Shown piece after piece: positions 39,903 to 51,329 of a stretch of 64,000 nucleotides of DNA. How positions within the stretch are numbered: the stretch's first letter is position 1; each line of letters begins with the position of its first letter. Location of the stretch: NCBI RefSeq assembly GCF_024713945.1, contig NC_134680.1:191001-255000 (forward strand), given 5' to 3'. The notes under the pieces were generated by a model. That model saw only the letters and a program-made list of their open reading frames with translations. It searched no databases and was not told the origin of the DNA. This stretch comes from Dermatophagoides farinae. Its lineage: Eukaryota; Arthropoda; Arachnida; Sarcoptiformes; Pyroglyphidae. The translations under genes were made by a program, and so were the position numbers.

Positions 39903-40343
39903 CTTGGATTTGTTTATTTGGCCCAAATATTATTTTGACACACACACACGCACACAGAACAACACAAAATTAGAAATGACGATTACATTTCTTCGTTTTT
40001 TTATATCGTTCTTCAACGAGCCGTAATTATCATTGTTTTCGTCATAACAATTAAAAGATAATTGGAGCAATTGATTTTTTTTTTATTTTTGTTTTGTTTT
40101 CATTCGACAAAAATTGTCAATGTTTAGTGAAACGAAAAAACAAAACAAAACAATTGTTTCGACCTGTCAAACAGGTTGAATCGATGAATTTCTTAATTTC
40201 ACCCATTTTAACATTATAGACAACATACAAACATTAACTGTGTGAAAATAGTGGAATATTAAACTCACGTGTGTGGATGATGTGTTTCAAATTTTTTTGA
40301 TTTTGATTTAAGACAAAAAAAAATTTAAATAAAAAATCAGATA
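39903..40343. promoter_or_regulatory. Bidirectional promoter region, TBK1 / RRP7A
   Basis: 441 bp between the TBK1 (minus) and RRP7A (plus) start codons, so both promoters must lie here or in introns. It holds a perfect inverted repeat, ACCTGT-CAA-ACAGGT, at 40162-40176, and an E-box in the context AACTCACGTG at 40262-40271, 73 bp before the RRP7A ATG. Factor binding at either site is inference. Confidence 0.6.
40262..40271 (+). promoter_or_regulatory. AACTCACGTG element upstream of RRP7A
   Basis: CACGTG E-box flanked by AACT. The last G is 73 bp upstream of the RRP7A ATG. The same oriented sequence occurs upstream of EXOSC9 and the RPC7-like gene. CACGTG is the known binding site of Myc/Max and related bHLH-ZIP factors; its use here is inferred. 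Confidence 0.55.
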
Positions 40344-41279
40344 ATGCAGATTGTCAAAAATGAAGGCTTCAATGTTTTACAGATTAAGTATGACAAGAAT
40401 TCATCGGTTATACGACATTTATATATGAAACGTTTTGTTTTAAATGCCGTATCGCAGCAACAACAACAACAGAAAAATTCTGATCAAGAACAACACGATG
40501 AATGTAAACCTGAAAATCGTACATTGTTCATGTTGAATATACCACCATTCATAAATGAACATCATATTCGATATTTATTCCGTAATTGTGGACAAATTGT
40601 AAAGGTTTATTTCGAAGAGAAGCCATCATATTCAACAGCTACATTAATGTATGAAAAAATAAAAAAATTAGATTCCACCACAATGAATCGAAAACAATCG
40701 AATGAATCAGCAGCAGCACCATCAATTGCAGAATTTTTCACGAAAGAAAATGAAATCATTGCCTATAAAATTTGTTATGTTGTTTTTGGTAAATCAAGTG
40801 GTCTTTCGAATGCTTTAGAGATGGCCCAAACTGATGATCAAATTTATACTTTTGTACCGGATGAAATTGATGATTCAAGTGATAGCCATTGGCTCACTGG
40901 TATGAAATTATGGCAATCACAATATAATCATTCAATAGCTCAACAATATCATCTGGTAAAAATTGCTGAAAAATTTGTAGCTGAATGTGATATGCATTCG
41001 GATGAACAAGACGAACAGAAACAGATGGAAGCTGAACAATTGAATGAACAACAACGACAATCAGATGGATGGATTACGGTGAATCGTCGTTTACGACGTG
41101 ATCGTCGTGCATTAATCGCAAATCAACAACATGATCAAAAAATTGAAGAAAAATATAAAGATCGTGAAATGAAACGAAAATCGATGGAACAAAAATTTGA
41201 TGAACAAATTGCACCAATCATTGAAGCAGCGATGAAAAAGAAAAAGAAAAATCCTCGTGCTACATACAACAGTTTTTAA
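40344..41279 (+). CDS. RRP7A: Ribosomal RNA-processing protein 7 homologue A
   Basis: Nucleolar factor of the small-subunit processome needed for 18S rRNA maturation. Intronless, 311 aa. An RRM-like fold starts at about residue 58 (RTLFMLNIPPFINEHHIRYLF) and resumes after a Ser/Ala-rich insert with AYKICYVVFGKSSGLSNAL. The C-terminal half matches the RRP7 domain: a helical acidic stretch, then DGWITVNRRLRRDRR, then a basic helix with the terminal RATYNSF. The ATG at 40344 is the first in frame. The next gene on the same strand starts about 140 bp after its stop, with a poly(A) signal between them. Its promoter carries the AACTCACGTG element. Confidence 0.88.
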   Translation: MQIVKNEGFNVLQIKYDKNSSVIRHLYMKRFVLNAVSQQQQQQKNSDQEQHDECKPENRTLFMLNIPPFINEHHIRYLFRNCGQIVKVYFEEKPSYSTATLMYEKIKKLDSTTMNRKQSNESAAAPSIAEFFTKENEIIAYKICYVVFGKSSGLSNALEMAQTDDQIYTFVPDEIDDSSDSHWLTGMKLWQSQYNHSIAQQYHLVKIAEKFVAECDMHSDEQDEQKQMEAEQLNEQQRQSDGWITVNRRLRRDRRALIANQQHDQKIEEKYKDREMKRKSMEQKFDEQIAPIIEAAMKKKKKNPRATYNSF

Positions 41280-41302
41280 TAATTGAAATTTTTTTGTAAA
41301 AT

Positions 41303-41308
41303 AATAAA
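41303..41308 (+). promoter_or_regulatory. Poly(A) signal, RRP7A
   Basis: AATAAA 24 bp after the RRP7A stop, inside the short gap before EARS2. It argues for two separate transcripts rather than one dicistronic message. Confidence 0.55.
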
Positions 41309-41419
41309 ATTTTTTATTATATTTTTTTGAATCTGAATTTCTGTTATGTCGTTTATGAACGACCGATTTTTTTCTGTCACATGTTTATAATTCGAATGTT
41401 TGAATTTTGTTGTTTTCAA

Positions 41420-43039
41420 ATGTTTCGAAAAAAGACACAATTGTGGTTATTACGGCCAAAATGGATGACCATTTTATCCATTCGATCCGAATGTTCATCA
41501 ACCGTACGGTTACGTTTTGCACCAAGTCCTACTGGTTTCGTTCATCTTGGTGGTTTACGTACTACATTGTTCAATTATTTATTTGCTCGTAAACATGGTG
41601 GTAAATTTATCGTACGTATTGAAGATACTGATCGTGAACGTATAGTTCCTGGATCATTAGAAAGCATTATGGATATTTTACATTGGTCCAATCTTCAACC
41701 AGATGAAGGTCCTGAATTCGGTGGCGATTATGGCCCATATATTCAATCAGAACGTGTAGAATTGTATCGAGAAATGATTGAAAAATTATTGAAAACCGAT
41801 ACTGTTTATCGATGTTTTTGCACCCATAAACGATTGGAATTATTACGTCGTGAAGCCGTGAAAAATCGTGAAACACCCCGATATGATAATCGATGTCGAT
41901 CATTGAGTAATGAAGAAATTCGTCAGAATTTAGCCGAAAATATACCATATACGGTACGATTAAAACTTTTACCAGGACCAATGGATATCAATGATCTGGT
42001 GTATGGTCGTGTTACATATGATCTTAGTCTTATTGAAGGTGATCCTATTCTATTTAAATCCGACGGATTACCAACCTATCATTTTGCCAATGTTGTCGAT
42101 GATTATCATATGCGAATCACACATGTACTTCGTGGTGTTGAGTGGCTTGTATCGACGCCAAAACATCTAATGATATATGATGCATTCGGTTGGCCTAGGC
42201 CAAAATATGCACATCTTCCTTTGTTGATCAATACAGATGGATCAAAACTATCGAAACGTCATGATCATATTCGTATTTCTACTTATCGTGATCAAGGTTA
42301 TTATCCAGAAGTTGTAATAAATTACCTTACACAAATGGGTGGCGGTTTTGGTCAATTGAACACAGCAGACTGTGATAAAATCTATCCAATTGATAAATTA
42401 GCCGCTGCATTCGATCTACAATCAGTTAATCAAAATAATTGTAAAATAGATGTGGAAAAAATTCGTCTATTAAATCGATTACACATACGGAATCTAATTG
42501 AAAATGATCCAAATCGTATACGAAATGATTTAATCTGCCTTCTCGAACGGAATCGAGAAAAATTTCAATCATTACAACAATTCGATAATCAAGATAAAAA
42601 TTATTTCGATAAATGTCTTCGATGGAGTTCAACACGGATATATACGATAAATGATTTGATTACAAATGATTTTCTATTTCTTTGGTCACAACCAAAATCA
42701 ACATGGGTGATGGAAGACAATTTTTCATTTGGTGGCACGAAACAACAAATTCAGCAAACATTACAGGCAACAATTGATTTATTATGGCAAATGAATGAAC
42801 AAGATTTTGATGATAAAGATGAAATTTTACAAAAACTTCGAATATTCAATAGTAGTGATGAACAGCAAATGAAATTCAGTGCATACATGAAACTTCTTCG
42901 ATTATCGTTGACAAATCTAACAAAAGGTCCACCTGTTGCTGAATCAATATCATTGCTTGGAAAAAATCGTACCATTCAATATATTACAAATTCGATTGAG
43001 CATTTACGAAACAAAAACAACAACAACAACGATCAATGA
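41420..43039 (+). CDS. EARS2: Mitochondrial glutamyl-tRNA synthetase
   Basis: Class I aminoacyl-tRNA synthetase that charges mitochondrial tRNA-Glu (and often tRNA-Gln). Intronless; from the ATG at 41420 it has 539 aa, close to the family's usual 520. A basic, hydrophobic leader suits a mitochondrial presequence. APSPTGFVHLGGLRTTLFNY contains the HIGH-type signature as HLGG; RIEDTDRER follows. SDGLPTYHFANVVDDYHMRI and THVLRGVEWL are further family blocks, and SKLSKRH is the KMSKS-type loop. In-frame ATGs exist further upstream, so the true start could be slightly longer. It converges on EXOSC9 with only 12 bp between stop codons. Confidence 0.93.
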   Translation: MFRKKTQLWLLRPKWMTILSIRSECSSTVRLRFAPSPTGFVHLGGLRTTLFNYLFARKHGGKFIVRIEDTDRERIVPGSLESIMDILHWSNLQPDEGPEFGGDYGPYIQSERVELYREMIEKLLKTDTVYRCFCTHKRLELLRREAVKNRETPRYDNRCRSLSNEEIRQNLAENIPYTVRLKLLPGPMDINDLVYGRVTYDLSLIEGDPILFKSDGLPTYHFANVVDDYHMRITHVLRGVEWLVSTPKHLMIYDAFGWPRPKYAHLPLLINTDGSKLSKRHDHIRISTYRDQGYYPEVVINYLTQMGGGFGQLNTADCDKIYPIDKLAAAFDLQSVNQNNCKIDVEKIRLLNRLHIRNLIENDPNRIRNDLICLLERNREKFQSLQQFDNQDKNYFDKCLRWSSTRIYTINDLITNDFLFLWSQPKSTWVMEDNFSFGGTKQQIQQTLQATIDLLWQMNEQDFDDKDEILQKLRIFNSSDEQQMKFSAYMKLLRLSLTNLTKGPPVAESISLLGKNRTIQYITNSIEHLRNKNNNNNDQ

Positions 43040-43051
43040 TGAATGGGTAAA

Positions 43052-44595
43052 TTATTTTTTCTTTTTCGAATTTTTACCACTTTTTTTACTAAATTCCCAT
43101 TGAAGTTGTACTGTTGCAGATTCTTCATCATCATCATCATCATCGGCAACATTTGCTGCTGCTATAATAGCTCGTTTTTCTTTTTTCGTTTTTTCATTAA
43201 ATTTTTTGATTGTTGTTCGTATATCTGAATCGGTTGCCGCTTTTTTCTTATCCACCACTGTCCATTTTTGTTTATTCATGTTATTCGTTTTTTTATTTCG
43301 ATTTGTTGACTTTATTTGTTCCATATCATAATCATCATTATTTTCCATTCGTGGATCAGTCAATTGTGCAGTACGAATTATTTCAATTTTTGATTGCTCT
43401 TCATGTTCCTTGTCCTCATAATCATCATCATCATCCATATCTAATGGTTCATTTATCTGTATAGCCCATTTGGATGGACCACCAAAACCAATATCAATAT
43501 TGTGAATTTTTTCCAAAATTTCATTATCATTTTCACCATTATTTGATGATGATCATTATGTTGTTCATCACCAAGAACTGGATGTCGATCATAATCACGT
43601 ATGATACATAGATCACCATTGAGCATTGCTTCATAGAAACCATACCGTTCAAATGGTTGTTGTTTTTGTCCACTGGTATTGACATGCATTTCCAATGTTT
43701 GTTTTAAATAATTGGTTACAAATCGTACACGTTCAAATGCTTTGTCCGTACAGGAACGTAATAAACGTTGTGAAAATGAACGTAATGATAATGGTCCAAT
43801 TGATTGTATGGCAACAATTTCTTTATAAACATTTGCACATATTATCAATACATTGTGAAGAAAATCTTCTTCCTCTTCAGTTGGATCACATATAAGCAGT
43901 TGTGTTGCTTTACGTACCAAATGTTCATGTTGTTCAGGTAAAATTTCCTGGTTTTCCGTCAGAATTTTTTTCAAATGTGTACGATCCATAAATTGAAATG
44001 TAACACACAGTGGATAATGAAATAATGTCAATGGTATTGGATTTCGTTCTTCATATGAATGTACAATAATATCACCATTATCAGGTGAAACGGTTGCATC
44101 CGGACGTTTGAAATGCATTAATGATGCTATCGTAGCAATAGATGCAGCTTCAATGAGATTACCATCGAAATTCAGCAATACCAATTTGGTACAAATACAC
44201 CATACCATTTTACCGGTAACAAGACATAGCGATTCTAGATCAAGAACATTGATACGATTAATAATTTTCTCCAACAATCTTGTCGTCAATATTGCTTCGG
44301 TTGGTTGTGAACGTTCAATATTTCGAAGCCATTTTTCTTTACCACCAGCACCAATGTTGATGATAACTTTGAAACGCCCTTCCGATGGTCGTGTAATTCG
44401 TGGTTCATCCAATGTTGCTTCTGTCGATGCATATATAATTGTATTGCCTAGTTGAACAAAACATGAGCCAAATGTAAGGCCAAAATTTACTTGTAAATCA
44501 CGTGATTGATAAAATGTTCGATTATCGATTCGTTTGTTTTCAAGAAGTGATTCGATCAAAAAACTTCGATTACAATTTGGTACAGTTCGTGACAT
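43052..44595 (-). CDS. EXOSC9: Exosome complex component RRP45, one-base frame break
   Basis: RNase PH-fold subunit of the nuclear and cytoplasmic RNA exosome ring; catalytically inert in animals. It begins MSRTVPNCNRSFLIESLLEN, then RIDNRTFYQSRDLQVNFG, EGRFKVIINIG, LDLESLCLVTGKMVW, NLIEAASIATIASLMHFKRP and RNPIPLTLFHYPLC, all RNase PH-domain blocks. After DYDRHPVLGDEQH the frame runs out of homology, while a second frame, open from about 43545, encodes an acidic then Lys-rich tail of about 160 residues like that of other EXOSC9 proteins. One missing base, most simply in the three-base run at 43542-43544, joins them (514 aa). If the break were real, the core domain would still be complete. 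Confidence 0.9.
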
Positions 44596-44788
44596 TTTTT
44601 CCTGGATTGATTTATATATGACAAAGACAGACACAATCAATCCTCAAGATCGTCAAAATTCTAAAAATTGAAACACGTGAGTTATCATCACCTCATTTCA
44701 ACACCATTAGGTTCGAATGGATCAAAATAGCCAATAACATCAACAACATATATGTTTTTCTTCAGGTTCCGACCAACAACAGCGAAAA
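44596..44788. other. EXOSC9 5' flank
   Basis: Upstream sequence of the minus-strand EXOSC9 gene, with the 17-bp E-box element at 44671-44687. Beyond it, the repeat island begins. Confidence 0.5.
44671..44687 (-). promoter_or_regulatory. AACTCACGTG element upstream of EXOSC9
   Basis: Minus-strand reading TGATAACTCACGTGTTT. The core CACGTG ends 79 bp before the EXOSC9 ATG. All 17 bases are identical to 50698-50714 upstream of the RPC7-like gene, in the same orientation relative to transcription. Confidence 0.6.
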
Positions 44789-44852
44789 AAAATAGCGATG
44801 GCTTAAAATAGCGATAGCCGAAAATAGCGACTGACGAAAATAGCGAATGAAA
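44789..44852. repeat. 16-bp minisatellite, four copies
   Basis: Four consecutive 16-bp units, each starting AAAATAGCGA: 44789-44804, 44805-44820, 44821-44836 and 44837-44852. The last six bases of each unit vary. A related TAGCGA motif recurs near 45140. Confidence 0.85.
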
Positions 44853-45191
44853 ATACGCATACGAAAAGAGCGAAAGTGATCAAACATAAACTTATGATTT
44901 TATTTATGAATGTTCCTTTGACAACAAAATAAAAAAAAAAATGAATTTTTATATCAATCAATCAATTTAATTTAAATTAATCAATGCAAATTTCAACATA
45001 AGAATGAAATAAATAAAATAAAAAAGGAATTTCGGCTTTTGCTATTTCATATCGCAACCGAAATTTTTGTTCATCATAATCATAAAACATCAGGAAACGG
45101 ATTCAGCCTTTAAAACCAGAATCTGACGGTTCGGCTATTTTTTAGCGACTTTTTGTGTGGATATAATCAAAGTACACGCAAAAATTGCGAG

Positions 45192-45320
45192 TACACAGAG
45201 AGAAAAAATCAAATTCGATTTACCCAATATCCTGTCAATAAACAGCGTACAAATTCAATGGTAACGTTGTTCATTGACAGGATATTGGGTAAATCATTTT
45301 CGATTTTTTCTCTCTGTGTA
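45192..45320. mobile_element. Fold-back element with 48-bp inverted arms
   Basis: Arms at 45192-45239 and 45273-45320 are reverse complements with only a few mismatches. Both start from the outer end TACACAGAGAGAAAAAATC and end at the inner TACCCAATATCCTGTCAAT. The loop is 33 bp. It has no coding capacity and resembles a nonautonomous hairpin or fold-back transposon relic. I do not recognise the family and see no clear target duplication. Confidence 0.75.
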
Positions 45321-45500
45321 TATAGATATTGCGGCGAATGTACACATACGTTCGTTCACTATTTGATGATTGATCTATCTATTTCACGTGATTTTGAATC
45401 TTCTGAACGTTCATTTCTATACTTATCATTTCCGAGGGTGTTTTGAGAGTGTAAAACTGAAACTGCGAGACGAAGGTTGCGCCTCCGTATCTTATAAAAT

Positions 45501-45710
45501 TCAGCGGCTTGGCTTAGTTTTAACATTATTTGCATCACACGTTGTCGCTGTAAGGTCGCAAATCAATAAATTTTCAAATGAATTATCACCGTTAATGATA
45601 TTTTTATCCAGTGCTAATTTCAAATCACAATAATTGTCTTCACATTCAAAATCTTCTTGACAATAATCCTCTTCAAGCAATAATTGCAATTGATTAATTA
45701 CAGATATCAT
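45501..45710 (-). other. Orphan 69-codon open frame in repeat island
   Basis: From an ATG at 45710 to a TGA at 45501. Its predicted peptide is acidic with several Cys (CQEDFECEDNYCDLK) and less repetitive than the usual spurious frames here. I recognise no domain. It abuts the topoisomerase pseudogene and may be a transposon fragment or chance. Treat it as unproven. Confidence 0.2.
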
Positions 45711-45729
45711 GTAATAAAATAACTTCTAG

Positions 45730-46402
45730 CAAATTGATTATGACTGACCCAGACCATGATGGAACACACATTGCCGGGCTAATTATAAATGCCATTCATT
45801 TTAACTGGCCTACATTGATAAGATTACATTTTCTGGAAAAGTTTATAACACCAATTGTTACAGTGAGTAGAGGAAGTTCAATTCGCGAATTTTATTCTTT
45901 ACCGGATTATGAACAATGGACAAAAAAACATCAAATTATACGAAACAAAGTATAATAAAGGTATTTTTTTTTTTGATTTTGATTTTCTTTCTGAATATTC
46001 TATTTTTTCATTATCAATCATTTGTTTGTCTATAGGTTTAGGGGGAGTGGCAGAAAATGATATTAAAAAATATTTTTCGAATATTAAAGAACATCGAATA
46101 AAATTATGTTATATGGATAACAATGATGATGATGCCATTGAAATGGCTTTCAGTAAAAAAAAGGAATGATTGAAGAATTTGGATCGAAGAAGAAATTAAA
46201 AAACGTTGCCGAGATCCTGTTAATTGGATAAATAAAATCCAGCTTTATGAACAGGATACACGAGAGATTTCCTACAAAGATTTCATCTGCAAGGCATTGC
46301 TAGCCTTCTGTATAATGAAAAATGGACGATCAATATCATCTTTGATGGATGGTTTAAAACCAGTACAACGTAAAATCATCCACACATGTTTTAAACTTTA
46401 TG
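45730..46402 (+). pseudogene. DNA topoisomerase II fragment (pseudogene)
   Basis: Homology to the TOPRIM and early breakage-reunion region of eukaryotic topoisomerase II: IMTDPDHDGTHIAGLIINAI (with the metal-binding DPDHD), FLEKFITPIVTV, FYSLPDYEQW, then after a GT-AG gap at 45961-46035 the blocks KKYFSNIKEHRIKL and DDDAIEMAFSKKK, then ISSLMDGLKPVQRKIIHTCF. It is dead: the exon before the gap is out of frame at its 3' end with TAA-TAA, the frame stops at a TGA near 46167 where the family has Trp, and further stops and shifts follow. Keeping a likely 75-bp intron shows it came from genomic DNA rather than a reverse-transcribed message. The N-terminal ATPase part and most of the C-terminal part are absent. 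Confidence 0.85.
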
Positions 46403-46438
46403 TTTCTATACTCTCTGGAGCCACTAATTCAATGCAGA

Positions 46439-46653
46439 TCAAACAAAGAGATTGTTCATAATCTTTACAATTTTGTAAAATGTGCTTGGTAATCGTGATG
46501 CAATATGATAGTATTTCGTTTCTTCGTTTACGATACCAGCCAAACGGAATTGATATTCAGCTGTTTTCAACCATGTTTCGGGATCGGATTCCCAAAATTC
46601 TTGTAATTTGACCGATACGGATTCAACTTTGTTTGTAACCGTTTTTTCATCAT
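46439..46653 (-). mobile_element. Gypsy-like retrotransposon gag fragment
   Basis: Minus-strand reading gives VKLQEFWESDPETWLKTAEY followed by QFRLAGIVNEETKYYHIASR, the N-terminal Gag pattern of Ty3/gypsy elements in arthropods, ending at a stop at 46439. Only about 70 residues remain; no protease or reverse transcriptase follows. Upstream on the same strand (about 46700-46815) is a non-repetitive stretch with AATAAAG that could be part of a long terminal repeat, but I cannot show a second copy. Confidence 0.6.
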
Positions 46654-46922
46654 TTTTGATTATTATTAACGAAAAATTAAAAAAAAAATCACTGAGTTAC
46701 CAATTATGTAGCGATGCATCACTTGAGGAAGAAGAATGATTACTTACTTTATTAAAACATGCCCGACTCACGGGTCGTTCATCAAGGCTGTGACGCCAAG
46801 AGCGCCACAGAATATAGATTTTTGCAAACTTTAGTGTAAAATTTTATTTTATCAATTTTTAAAATTATTTTGATAGGTTTATACATGAAAAGTACTTGTA
46901 TGGTGTGTATGAAAATAATCCA

Positions 46923-47160
46923 AATTGGTTAGTGCTAACCATTGAGGGTGAGCATTGCAGTTTAGTGCTAACCTTTCTTGGTTAGCATTAACCCATTTTG
47001 ATTAGTTTTTAGGGTTAGCCCTAACCCAGTATTTCCCAACCTTTTTTTCTTCGCGAACCAAAATAAAAATACGAGTAAATACAAAGTTACCCTTTTACAT
47101 ATCCTACGAACCCCCAAGGGTTCGCGAACCACCGGTTGGGAATCACTGCCCTAACCAATT
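46923..47160. mobile_element. Older inverted-repeat element, host of the hAT MITE
   Basis: The left end AATTGGTTAGTGCTAACC (46923-46940) pairs, after removing the inserted MITE and one copy of its target duplication, with GGTTAGCCCTAACC plus AATT on the right. That makes 18-bp terminal inverted repeats with one mismatch. Without the insertion the element is about 109 bp. GTTAGNNCTAAC-like motifs recur inside it. Family unknown. Confidence 0.65.
47028..47148. mobile_element. hAT-type MITE with 8-bp target duplication
   Basis: 121 bp. The left end CAGTATTTCCCAACC and the reverse complement of the right end, CAGTGATTCCCAACC, match at 13 of 15 bases, with a further internal TTCGCGAACC inverted match. 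It is flanked by a perfect 8-bp direct repeat, CCCTAACC, at 47020-47027 and 47149-47156. The 8-bp duplication and the CAGTG-like ends are the hallmarks of hAT elements. It has no coding capacity. Confidence 0.85.
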
Positions 47161-47210
47161 CGGGGAGTGCTAACCCTACTTTCTTTTCTGTGCTTACTTT
47201 CGTTATGTTC

Positions 47211-47404
47211 GGCCTAGTGGTCTAATGGTATGATTCATGCTTAGGGTTTATACACTGCAAGTTGTTTTTATGTGTTATGTTATCGAACACAGAGAAAAAA
47301 AATATCAAGAAAGAAATAATTCGGGCTTATGTGCAACACACACTAATCCCGATTTCCGCCCACTAATTTGCGTGAGGTTTCGGGTTCAATTCCCGGCTAG
47401 GCCC
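47211..47404 (+). tRNA. tRNA-Pro(AGG) with 122-nt intron
   Basis: Acceptor stem GGCCTAG / CTAGGCC (47211-47217 with 47397-47403). The anticodon arm is CATGC, loop TTAGGG..T, GCGTG. The T arm is TCGGG TTCAATT CCCGG, carrying a good B box, and the D arm has a good A box. The sequence after TTAGGG is interrupted at 47247-47368, exactly between positions 37 and 38, the canonical site of nuclear tRNA introns. Anticodon AGG reads Pro. A four-T Pol III terminator follows at 47407. Animal tRNA introns are usually about 10-30 nt, so this one is very long. It could be a functional gene or one invaded by foreign DNA; all stems are intact. Confidence 0.8.
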
Positions 47405-47406
47405 CG

Positions 47407-47410
47407 TTTT
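47407..47410 (+). terminator. Pol III T4 terminator of tRNA-Pro
   Basis: TTTT three bases after the tRNA discriminator base, then CTTTTTT, the expected RNA polymerase III stop signal. Confidence 0.65.
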
Positions 47411-47418
47411 CTTTTTTA

Positions 47419-47603
47419 CAGTAATACCCCGCTTAACGCTGCCCCGTTTAGCGCTGATTCGATATAACGCTGTACAATTACCCTACATTACATTACATTG
47501 TTACATTGTATATGAAGGGTAAAAATAGCCTCGCTTAGCGCTGTTTCGCTTAACGTTCAGAATTTTTGTAACGTAACCCCCCGCGTTAAGCGGGGTAATA
47601 CTG
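47419..47603. mobile_element. Tigger/pogo-like MITE
   Basis: 185 bp bounded by TA dinucleotides (47417-47418 and 47604-47605). The left end CAGTAATACCCCGCTTAACG and the reverse complement of the right end, CAGTATTACCCCGCTTAACG, differ at one base. The CCCCGCTTAACGC core is typical of Tigger/pogo elements of the Tc1-mariner superfamily. More TAGCGCTG and TAACGCTG subrepeats lie inside. It is noncoding, hence nonautonomous. Confidence 0.85.
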
Positions 47604-47605
47604 TA

Positions 47606-47900
47606 ATTCATTAATTAAAAAATGCAATTTTTTTCCTTTAATGAACGATTATCTAATCTCAAAAAATGATTCAAGATAAATTGTGTTGAAACAAAGTTAG
47701 GTCGAAGTTCGGACTCTAATCGTGATTGAATTGTTGAAAGAAACATTTTAAAATTAAATTGTTTTTTACAGCGAAAAAATTCTGGTGTTTTTCGGCTGGG
47801 CCCAATTTTTTTTCTTAGTTTTCGATTCAATAAACTTTAAAATTTATTTTTATTTAAAAAAACGACAAAATGAAAGACAGTTGATAATTGATTTTTTTTA
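47606..47900. other. MCCC1 3' flank
   Basis: AT-rich DNA between the Tigger-like MITE and the MCCC1 stop codon, likely including the MCCC1 3' UTR on the minus strand. Nothing distinct is seen. Confidence 0.4.
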
Positions 47901-50279
47901 TTAGATCGATTCAATCGATTTTAATCGTAAAATAACGGCATTTTTCGACACACTATCACCTGGTTTAAAGAAAACTTGTTCCACAACTCTTTCGGTTTGA
48001 TTTTCATCAAATTTGGCAGTAATTACATGTTCCATTTTCATAGCTGTTAGAATGGCAATTATATCACCATTACGAATTGTATCACCAGGTTTATGGGCAA
48101 TTTTCTCTATGACAGCTGGCATTGGACTGGTAATATTTTTGCCATCAAAAATTGTCGTTGAGGAATCAGATGATTGTTGTTGTTGTTGAATAAAATCCGG
48201 TAATCGTAATTCAAATGTGAATGTACCAAAATTATGATCATAAATCGAAACGGAACGATCACCATGTAGCGAAATATCGAATTTTTTACGATGACCATCA
48301 TCATCAATTGTTATAATCGATACTGGATTTTTTGTTTCATCATTCAAAAATTCTGCTTCAATAGCTAATGTTTGTAATGGTTTTTTGTTATCACCACCAC
48401 CACCATCATCGAAAATATCGATTTGATATCGATTATGACCACGACATTGAATACAAAGTTTTGAATTTTTAGAATTATCGTCATCCACAAATCCTTGTAT
48501 CGAATTCAATTGAATATCATGAATAGAACTATATGAATCTATTGAACCATTCATCCATGGACCTTCAATCGAATTGAATGGTGATGTCCAATCATTATTA
48601 CGGTGGCGATATGATTGTTGATGACGCGATTTTTGTCTATACACAAATGCTATGGCAGCCACAGACTGAATCAGGTGACGATAATTTTCATCCTTGATGG
48701 CCGGTCGACAAAGATCTTGTTGATGTTCGGCTATAAAATCTGTGTATACATCACCAGATTGAAATTTCGGATGCATAGCCAGTCGTAATAGATAATCAAT
48801 ATTGGTTTTCATACCAGTCAGATGATATTCACGTAATGCTTGACATAATTTTCTAAGGGCCGTAGAACGATCCGGTGCCCATACAACCAGTTTAGCAATC
48901 ATTGGATCATAAAAGACAGATACTTCATCACCTTGTCGTACGGCTGTTTCGATACGAATTTCATGTGGCATAAATGATTTTGGTAATGATAATGATTCGA
49001 TAAAACCGGTACATGGTGCAAAATTCGATTCTGGATCTTCAGCATAAATTCGTGCTTCAAATGAATGTCCAATTGGACCATTAATGAAATCGGTTTGTTG
49101 TTTTGGCAATGGTTCACCACCAGCTATACGTAGTTGCCATTCAACAAGATCTAAACCGGTAATCATTTCAGTGACAGGATGTTCAACCTGTAATCGTGTA
49201 TTCATTTCCATAAAATAGAATTTTTGATCACGATTATCGAAAATAAATTCCACGGTACCAGCACCATGATAATCGACAGCTTTAGCTGCTTTTACAGCTG
49301 ATGTACCAAGTTTTTCGCGAATTTCTTCGGTTATATGTGGTGCAGGTGCTTCTTCAATCACTTTTTGATGACGACGTTGACTGGAACAATCACGTTCAAA
49401 AAGATAAACACAATTGCCATATTTATCACCAAAAATCTGTACTTCAACATGACGTGGACGTTGCACAAATCTTTCTAATAGAACAATATCATCACCAAAT
49501 GATTTCATTGCCTCACGACGTGCTGAATCCAATTGATTGAGAAATTCTTGTTCTGTCAATGCTATACGCATACCTTTACCACCACCGCCACGAACTGCTT
49601 TGATCATGACGGGAAATCCAATTTGTTTAGCATGTTCTAATAATCGTTCACTATTCTGTTGTTGATCATCATGAAATCCTGGTATCACTGGAACATCAGC
49701 ATTGATCATAATAGATTTCGATAATGATTTTATTCCCATCGATTTAATGGCATCAGATGTTGGTCCCACGAATATTATATTATTATCAGTGCAAAGTTGT
49801 GAAAATTCAAAATTTTCCGATAAAAATCCATAACCCGGATGAATGGCATCGGACCGTGATTGCTGAGCGATATTCAATAATTTCTCTTTCACAAGATAAC
49901 TATTAGCTGCTGGTGATGGTCCAATATGATAGGCTTCATCAGCCATAGCAACATGCATTGAATGACGATCAGCATCACTATAAACGGCAACCGTTTCAAC
50001 ACCTAAACGTCGTGCTGTACGTATGATTCGACAAGCAATTTCACCACGATTCGCAATCAATAATTTACCAATATTTTTAACCGTCGACGTTTCTGGCCTT
50101 TGACCAATATGTTCCAATTCAACTTTAGATTGCGAATATTGAATTCTATTTTTAATCGATGAAAATGGTTGCCTATAAAAAAACATTTGAATGATAAAAG
50201 AGAAAAACTCAATGAATTGCCATTGCACCATTTACCTCAGAAATGAATAATTTCTCATTCGAATTATACCGGACATCAT
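47901..50279 (-). CDS. MCCC1: 3-methylcrotonyl-CoA carboxylase subunit alpha, mitochondrial
   Basis: Biotin-bearing subunit of the leucine-breakdown enzyme that carboxylates 3-methylcrotonyl-CoA in mitochondria. Exons 50279-50236 and 50172-47901; 771 aa. The short first exon encodes a basic leader (MMSGIIRMRNYSFLR) suiting a mitochondrial presequence. Biotin carboxylase blocks: KLLIANRGEIACRIIRTARR, HPGYGFLSEN, the ATP-grasp glycine loop MIKAVRGGGGKGMRIA, FERDCSSQRRHQKVIEEAPA, EMNTRLQVEHPVTE and GDEVSVFYDPMIAKLVVWA. The biotinyl Lys is in AMKMEH at about residue 727. MGIKSLSKSIM and the AMKMEH form point to MCCC1 rather than PCCA. It is head to head with the RPC7-like gene, 504 bp apart. Confidence 0.94.
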
Positions 50280-50648
50280 GATGATGATGATTTAGGTTTT
50301 TGTTTTTAATTTGGACATTGAATTCAAATAAACTTTTGAGAAAAAATTCCTTGCTAATGATTGCAATGATCATCAGGAGGTTTTTTCAAATCGATAAATT
50401 GTTGTTGTTGATGCCCATCGATAGCCTTGAGGTAACACTTTACATAAACATCATCAACAACAACAGTAAAGAGATGTTCATCATCGTTTATCAGCAATGT
50501 ATACATTATGTGAGTGAGTATTAAGTATCGATAATCAAGATATTTTCAAATGGCGTGACAGCAAACAAGCAACAAGTCGATTTTTGATTTGAATATTGGA
50601 TAGAAAAATTTTCACACACAGTTTCGCGAATGAATAAATCGAAAACCA

Positions 50649-50704
50649 GTTATCAACGTATAAACCGGGTTCTTCTTCATTCGTCGTGTTTATACGTTGA
50701 TAAC
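50649..50704. repeat. Perfect 16-bp inverted repeat in promoter
   Basis: GTTATCAACGTATAAA at 50649-50664 and its exact reverse complement at 50689-50704, with a 24-bp spacer. The right arm runs into AACTCACGTG. It could form a hairpin or hold paired protein sites. Confidence 0.9.
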
Positions 50705-50714
50705 TCACGTGTTT
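50698..50714 (+). promoter_or_regulatory. AACTCACGTG element upstream of RPC7-like gene
   Basis: TGATAACTCACGTGTTT, identical over 17 bases to the EXOSC9 upstream element. The core CACGTG ends 73 bp before the ATG, the same distance as in RRP7A. Confidence 0.6.
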
Positions 50715-50783
50715 AAAAAATTTTTCAATTTTTTTGTTGTTGTTGTTGTTTTTGAATCACGAATCTAAAAATATTTTTCCACC

Positions 50784-51329
50784 ATGAGTGGTAGAAAAAT
50801 GGAACGATATGCTAATCCATCAACATCATCGTCAACAGCGGCAACAACAATGCTTATGGATTCAAATAATGATGATCCATATTCATTGAAATTGGAACGT
50901 TTAGATATTTTAAATATTGATGATACATCTACATTTATGACCGATGTAATTGAACAACGAAAAAGTCTTTATGATGATGCCCGATTAATGACAAGATTAT
51001 TAGGTCTAGATCAATATTCCGATACAATCAATGATGGTGATGGTGAATTAAGGAAGAAAAAAATTAAAGCCAAAAAAAAGAAAACCATTATTCGACGATA
51101 TAACATTGATGATGATGATGATGATCAACCAACACTTGTGGGTGATATAATTGAAAGAAATGATCAAACGGTGGTGAATAAAACAAAAACCAAACAAGAA
51201 GGAGAAGCAACAACCGATGATGACGATGATGATGATAATGATGAAGAATTGGCAAATCCCGATTCAATGGAAGAAGATAATGATTATATGGATTCATATT
51301 TTGATAATGGGGAAGATTTTATTGATTGA
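50784..51329 (+). CDS. POLR3GL: RNA polymerase III subunit RPC7-like (POLR3G/POLR3GL family)
   Basis: Probable RPC7 (yeast Rpc31) subunit of the Pol III-specific heterotrimer involved in initiation. Intronless, 181 aa, somewhat short for a family of about 200-220 aa. The strongest evidence is the C terminus: a long acidic run, then EEDNDYMDSYFDNGEDFID, matching the RPC7 end pattern of an acidic tract followed by DYxxSYFxxGxDF. The middle has a Lys-rich patch (KKKIKAKKKKT), also common in the family. The N-terminal part (YSLKLERLDILNIDDTSTF) is poorly conserved to my eye. The symbol is tentative because the POLR3G/POLR3GL split is vertebrate. Its last 11 bases overlap the end of DCAF17 on the other strand. 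Confidence 0.65.
   Translation: MSGRKMERYANPSTSSSTAATTMLMDSNNDDPYSLKLERLDILNIDDTSTFMTDVIEQRKSLYDDARLMTRLLGLDQYSDTINDGDGELRKKKIKAKKKKTIIRRYNIDDDDDDQPTLVGDIIERNDQTVVNKTKTKQEGEATTDDDDDDDNDEELANPDSMEEDNDYMDSYFDNGEDFID
51318..51323 (-). promoter_or_regulatory. Poly(A) signal overlapping the DCAF17 stop codon
   Basis: The minus strand reads CAATAAAAT: AATAAA includes the TAA stop of DCAF17 (51321-51319). The DCAF17 3' UTR may be only a few tens of bases and lies antisense to the RPC7-like coding region. Confidence 0.45.

Follow-up and report, generated by a model that had tools for sequence, protein, structure and literature searches.

In flies and other holozoans, genes for building ribosomes share a promoter signature with CACGTG at its core. 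Brown, Cole and Erives (2008) described a holozoan ribosome-biogenesis (RiBi) regulon with E(CG) core promoters, attributed it to Myc:Max, and reported that, in every holozoan genome with Myc that they examined, approximately 50-90% of the ribosome-biogenesis genes that could be identified had CACGTG promoters; EXOSC1 and POLR3K were on the list conserved across holozoans, and the CACGTG enrichment was absent in a nematode that has lost Myc (PMC2570694). CACGTG was also enriched in the fly-larva promoters of RNA polymerase I (Pol I), RNA polymerase III (Pol III) and rRNA-processing genes, and many fly ribosome-biogenesis genes were Myc-responsive (PMC2827378). In human, MYC and MAX occupy the promoter of POLR3G (RPC7-alpha), which has two CACGTG boxes, and POLR3G falls on MYC knockdown (PMC10605170). 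These statements, like those cited below, are taken from portions of the papers named. Here we describe an E-box element, AACTCACGTGT, that lies 5' of three RNA-biogenesis genes in a 64,000-nucleotide stretch of the genome of the mite Dermatophagoides farinae (contig NC_134680.1, positions 191,001 to 255,000), which we call the window and in which position 1 is the first letter.

The three genes and the copies of the element are as follows, with distances in nucleotides (nt) and protein lengths in amino acids (aa).

40344 to 41279, plus strand: RRP7A-like gene of pre-rRNA processing, 311 aa (PDB 7mq8, human RRP7 homolog A, E=4.7e-11)
43453 to 44595, minus strand: EXOSC9/RRP45-like exosome subunit, 380 aa in the open reading frame (ORF) (RRP45/EXOSC9 match, E=4.9e-48; Pfam RNase_PH)
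50784 to 51329, plus strand: RPC7-like Pol III subunit, 181 aa (RPC7 match, E=5.4e-4, residues 124-179)
40262 to 40272, plus strand: E-box element AACTCACGTGT 5' of the RRP7A-like gene, CACGTG ending 73 nt before the ATG
44673 to 44683, minus strand: E-box element AACTCACGTGT 5' of the EXOSC9-like gene, CACGTG ending 79 nt before the ATG
50702 to 50712, plus strand: E-box element AACTCACGTGT 5' of the RPC7-like gene, CACGTG ending 73 nt before the ATG
44671 to 44687, minus strand: 17-base block TGATAACTCACGTGTTT, EXOSC9 copy, identical to the RPC7 copy
50698 to 50714, plus strand: 17-base block TGATAACTCACGTGTTT, RPC7 copy, identical to the EXOSC9 copy

The element had been proposed in an earlier note as the shorter word AACTCACGTG, which occurred exactly three times in the window (40262-40271 on the plus strand, 44674-44683 on the minus strand and 50702-50711 on the plus strand) vs. 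0.09 expected. Its expectation was 0.01-0.07 under Markov models of order 1 to 4 trained on the window, and at least three copies were found in 0 of 100 shuffles of the window. The coordinates given for these copies, the spacings of 73, 79 and 73 nt and the 17-base identity between the EXOSC9 and RPC7 promoters all proved correct, and the shared element itself was real; only its length needed amendment, as the full word common to the three promoters is the 11-mer AACTCACGTGT, one base longer. Each copy is on the strand of its gene and has a T immediately 5' of CACGTG. The same orientation relative to the gene, which had also been claimed, is thus true of every copy, but orientation alone is no evidence because three of three would agree with a coin-toss probability of 1/4.

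Upstream regions of 150 nt were compared for a curated set of 16 gene starts. Three of these starts, those of the MCCC1-like gene (50280), the DCAF17-like gene (53182) and the ORF56111 gene (55916), were placed by eye; the names SCYL2-like, PP2C and that of ORF21087, as well as the assignment of ORF33372 as laminin-like, come from reading translations that had no Pfam match or were unscanned, with starts that are uncertain. The 300 nt upstream of each of the remaining 13 starts lacked the exact word, as the earlier note had said of the extended form, and the closest other upstream match had two mismatches and lay 184 nt 5' of the SCYL2-like gene. CACGTG itself was found within 200 nt upstream of all three element genes vs. 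none of the remaining 13. When the curated set was replaced by a mechanically compiled list of 37 ORFs beginning with ATG and of at least 100 aa, AACTCACGTG occurred on the same strand within 200 nt upstream of 3 of the 37, the same three genes, and plain CACGTG within that distance of 5 of the 37. What the window displays directly is an 11-base word that three RNA-biogenesis genes share, that is restricted to them and that stands at an almost constant distance from the ATG.

Among the 16 upstream regions, AACTCACGTGT was the only non-simple 11-mer (at least three G/C) common to at least three. Dinucleotide shuffles of the 16 regions produced such an 11-mer in at least three regions in 7 of 2500 cases and within a 10-nt spread of position in none of the 2500, with 10-mers giving 41/2500 at any position and 2/2500 positioned; a smaller run gave 0/300 for 11-mers and 3/300 for 10-mers. 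Sets of real non-coding segments shared an 11-mer far more often with no complexity filter (321/1500, 9/1500 positioned) than after removal of simple words (9/2000, 0/2000 positioned), a filter which AACTCACGTGT passes. Because of the shuffles, the non-coding segments and the 37-ORF list together, we conclude that the element is real at the sequence level.

The closest likeness is to the holozoan RiBi regulon, in which genes for rRNA processing, the exosome and polymerase subunits also carry CACGTG close to their starts. By similarity, the three mite genes belong to ribosome biogenesis, related polymerases and RNA processing, and the earlier naming of RRP7A and EXOSC9 is firm, with Pfam RRM_1 slightly below its cut-off in the RRP7A-like protein. 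The regulon was defined by CACGTG no more than 80 bp from the transcription start in fly or no more than 600 bp from the annotated 5' end across holozoans, and boxes ending 73-79 nt before the ATG in all three promoters would fit the 600-bp distance unless the 5' untranslated region is long. The fly Myc E-box at Pol I, Pol III and rRNA-processing genes that respond to nutrients is alike in core and in gene classes (PMC2827378), and human POLR3G, an RPC7 gene, resembles the mite RPC7-like gene in having a promoter with CACGTG (PMC10605170), although the human promoter has two boxes whereas the mite gene, which is only weakly similar to RPC7, has one within 600 nt upstream.

Taking these comparisons into account, we consider it rather probable that the element, most likely bound by Myc:Max, belongs with the promoter-proximal CG-core E-boxes by which genes for ribosome biogenesis and for polymerase subunits are marked across animals, and the three genes are most likely a new example of the known animal growth control of ribosome-building genes. 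A basic helix-loop-helix (bHLH)-zipper dimer, most likely Myc:Max, would bind CACGTG near the transcription start and would raise the expression of the RNA-biogenesis genes jointly during cell growth; the Myc:Max binding, the growth response and the wider regulon membership are carried over from published fly and human work. The E-box regulon of RNA-biogenesis genes put forward in the earlier note is accordingly plausible, but its kind was known before, from published work on flies and other holozoans (PMC2570694, PMC2827378).

Several observations weigh against or qualify this interpretation. Only three sites lie behind it, and three genes cannot establish a regulon. The element was present in 3/3 RNA-biogenesis genes vs. 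0/13 other curated starts, which has a chance of 1/560 with the class taken as given and of 4/560 once a glutamyl-tRNA-synthetase-like gene joins it, and for both figures the class was defined only after the motif had been seen. The RPC7 identity proposed earlier holds but is modest as judged by similarity, with Pfam Rpc31 (E=4.4e-6, residues 88-178) scoring under the curated cut-off and the matches confined to the C-terminal half, towards the acidic C-terminus. The flank also differs from that of flies, where the reported form is MAACACGTGYG and the avoided one KKYCACGTGRMK (PMC2570694): compared by hand on the better strand, none of the three copies was an exact match to MAACACGTGYG (one mismatch each for EXOSC9 and RPC7, two for RRP7), while each had four mismatches to KKYCACGTGRMK. 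A fly-type cluster, in which E(CG) has at least two DNA replication-related element (DRE) motifs no farther than 80 bp away, was absent at all three boxes; both MAACACGTGYG and the DRE cluster are a fly-specific signature that is not required outside flies. Finally, the affinity of Myc:Max for TCACGTGA was four- to five-fold lower than for GCACGTGC in a study whose portion seen here does not cover the asymmetric TCACGTGT (PMC4242493), so that the T-CACGTG-T flank may weaken Myc:Max binding. The preferred flank of this lineage is probably the one seen here, with AACT on one side and TGT or TTT on the other.

The alternative that survives best keeps the regulon and changes its reader, with the asymmetric T-CACGTG-T as the deciding feature: a MiT/TFE (MITF/TFEB-like) or USF-type dimer favoring a 5' T would bind instead of Myc:Max. 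A T directly 5' of CACGTG on the gene strand in 3/3 copies speaks for such a dimer, since 5' T and/or 3' A flanks set MITF apart from MYC targets, with TCACGTGA as the MITF consensus (PMC7427332). A further study reported a start-site peak of YCACGTGR in human only and of the R...Y form in fly only (PMC1779564; for the latter one passage has RCACGTCY and a figure legend RCACGTGY), and all three mite copies are TCACGTGT, half of each form. The likeness to the Coordinated Lysosomal Expression and Regulation (CLEAR)/MiT-TFE motif ends at the 5' T, as the 3' A is missing, the full TCACGTGA was found in 0/3 copies and the genes are not lysosomal; moreover, the holozoan study argues for Myc, and not other bHLH genes, as the explanation of its sites (PMC2570694). 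We regard a MiT/TFE or USF-type reader as possible but unlikely.

A second sequence, TTTCAA(A)TTTTT, was found 3' of the box in each of the three promoters.

40285 to 40296, plus strand: possible second shared tract TTTCAAATTTTT, 13 nt past CACGTG (RRP7A-like), suggestive
44663 to 44673, minus strand: possible second shared tract TTTCAATTTTT, immediately past CACGTG (EXOSC9-like), suggestive
50723 to 50733, plus strand: possible second shared tract TTTCAATTTTT, 11 nt past CACGTG (RPC7-like), suggestive

None of the 13 other 150-nt upstream regions contained it, the window held nine copies, and its offset from CACGTG varied (13, 0 and 11 nt). When the three leaders were shuffled, a comparable shared 11-mer, with one edit allowed, turned up in 15 of 2000 cases, and none of the 286 triples that can be drawn from the other 13 starts had one; across all 16 starts, 6 of 560 triples shared such a word, the element triple included, and the other five did so through GTT-type repeats or the TTGTTTTTGAAT word in RPC7. 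Because the tract is AT-rich and was picked post hoc, we keep it as a suggestive, weaker lead.

This tract enters a second alternative, in which the regulon would have been re-specified in the lineage: an asymmetric, oriented AACTCACGTGT (partly TGATAACTCACGTGTTT) followed by TTTCAA(A)TTTTT at a near-fixed distance from the ATG would replace MAACACGTGYG, and its reader would be either a bHLH-zipper dimer without Myc or Myc:Max joined on one flank by a fixed partner. Such a re-specification appears improbable to us.

Chance was slightly less credible still. The word was selected after reading, from many in an AT-rich genome full of short repeats, and concerns three genes; unfiltered non-coding sets share 11-mers, sometimes in position; and CACGTG is common in the window, with 20 sites vs. 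8.7 expected, 10 of the 20 inside the 28 ORFs supplied to the script. Removal of simple words, however, left few shared words in those sets and none at a fixed position, and the element holds a known factor site on a gene class already known to carry such a site, so that we hold a coincidence to be quite unlikely. The least credible explanation concerns the 17-base block and a feature beside the RPC7 copy.

50648 to 50705, no strand assigned: inverted repeat of two perfect 18-nt arms separated by 22 nt, of which the right one overlaps the AACT of the RPC7 element

That a dispersed repeat with the block was inserted 5' of EXOSC9 and RPC7, to be shared by descent, is very improbable, for although 17 identical bases span two promoters, the RPC7 copy stands at the end of this inverted repeat (the second longest of four perfect ones in the window with arms of at least 14 nt and spacers of at most 60 nt), a form that mobile elements can leave, and repeats and a topoisomerase II-like fragment lie in the region beyond EXOSC9, the base adjoining the block differs on both sides, the inverted repeats listed include none around the copy at EXOSC9, RRP7 shares only the 11-base core of the block, and the position relative to the ATG is preserved.

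Two other words were set aside. An RRPE-like (ribosomal RNA processing element) second element, AAAATTTTTC, was rejected as shared, being present at RPC7 only (1 of 16 upstream regions, seven in the window), and TGATAACT, with four sites in the window (beside the EXOSC9 box, beside the RPC7 box, at the inverted-repeat partner at RPC7 and in the EXOSC9 coding sequence), had too few to judge.

Two of the genes are divergently arranged with a neighbor: RRP7 with a TBK1-like kinase whose start lies 364 nt from the E-box, and RPC7 with an MCCC1-like carboxylase (47901-50280, E=4.1e-207) whose start lies 426 nt from it. The MCCC1-RPC7 intergenic region (50390-50533) contained three DRE-like sites, ATCGATA at 50390 and 50417 and TATCGATA at 50526. 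Within 300 nt upstream, TATCGAT or ATCGATA was found at neither RRP7 nor EXOSC9, and RPC7 had the one TATCGATA, approximately 170 nt from its E-box and one of three in the window. Because the published genes whose CACGTG is conserved across holozoans include MCCC2 (PMC2570694), this intergenic region may serve both MCCC1 and RPC7.

Upstream of EXOSC9, three overlapping 26-nt copies, 16 nt apart and with a unit containing AAAATAGCGA, occupied 44789-44846, approximately 200-250 nt 5' of the ATG. Further out lay an inverted repeat at 45192-45320 (57 nt, 89% complementary, a 15-nt spacer and a 23-nt perfect stretch inside), which may be the remnant of a small mobile element, and a broken DNA topoisomerase II-like fragment at 45740-46460, of which the open piece 45740-45952 matched TOP2A (E=1.2e-20) while further pieces in other frames were TOP2-like by reading of their translations. 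A tRNA-Pro(AGG) gene with a 122-nt insert or intron in the anticodon loop was identified at 47211-47405 by ARAGORN with introns of up to 200 nt allowed; it was detected neither by the default tRNA scan nor by Rfam at the gathering score. A search for EXOSC9 relatives found none in viral_contigs and, in genome_contigs, 23 pattern matches of which 0 were confirmed.

Literature searches for CACGTG with house dust mite, and for Myc, E-box and ribosome biogenesis with mite, returned nothing relevant. A search on chelicerate CACGTG, Myc and ribosome-biogenesis promoters had none on chelicerates among the matches listed, and the one with the word concerns plants; for Dermatophagoides promoters no paper naming Dermatophagoides was among the matches listed, and for bHLH, Myc and Max in Tetranychus or Ixodes the portion seen of a mite genome paper leaves Myc unmentioned.

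At present, these are three genes that fit an established picture, and only the T flank merits further attention. Should the pattern hold genome-wide, it would extend the animal growth regulon to this lineage and would supply a start-anchored signature for its ribosome-biogenesis genes, and the T flank would then test whether Myc or another E-box factor drives the regulon.

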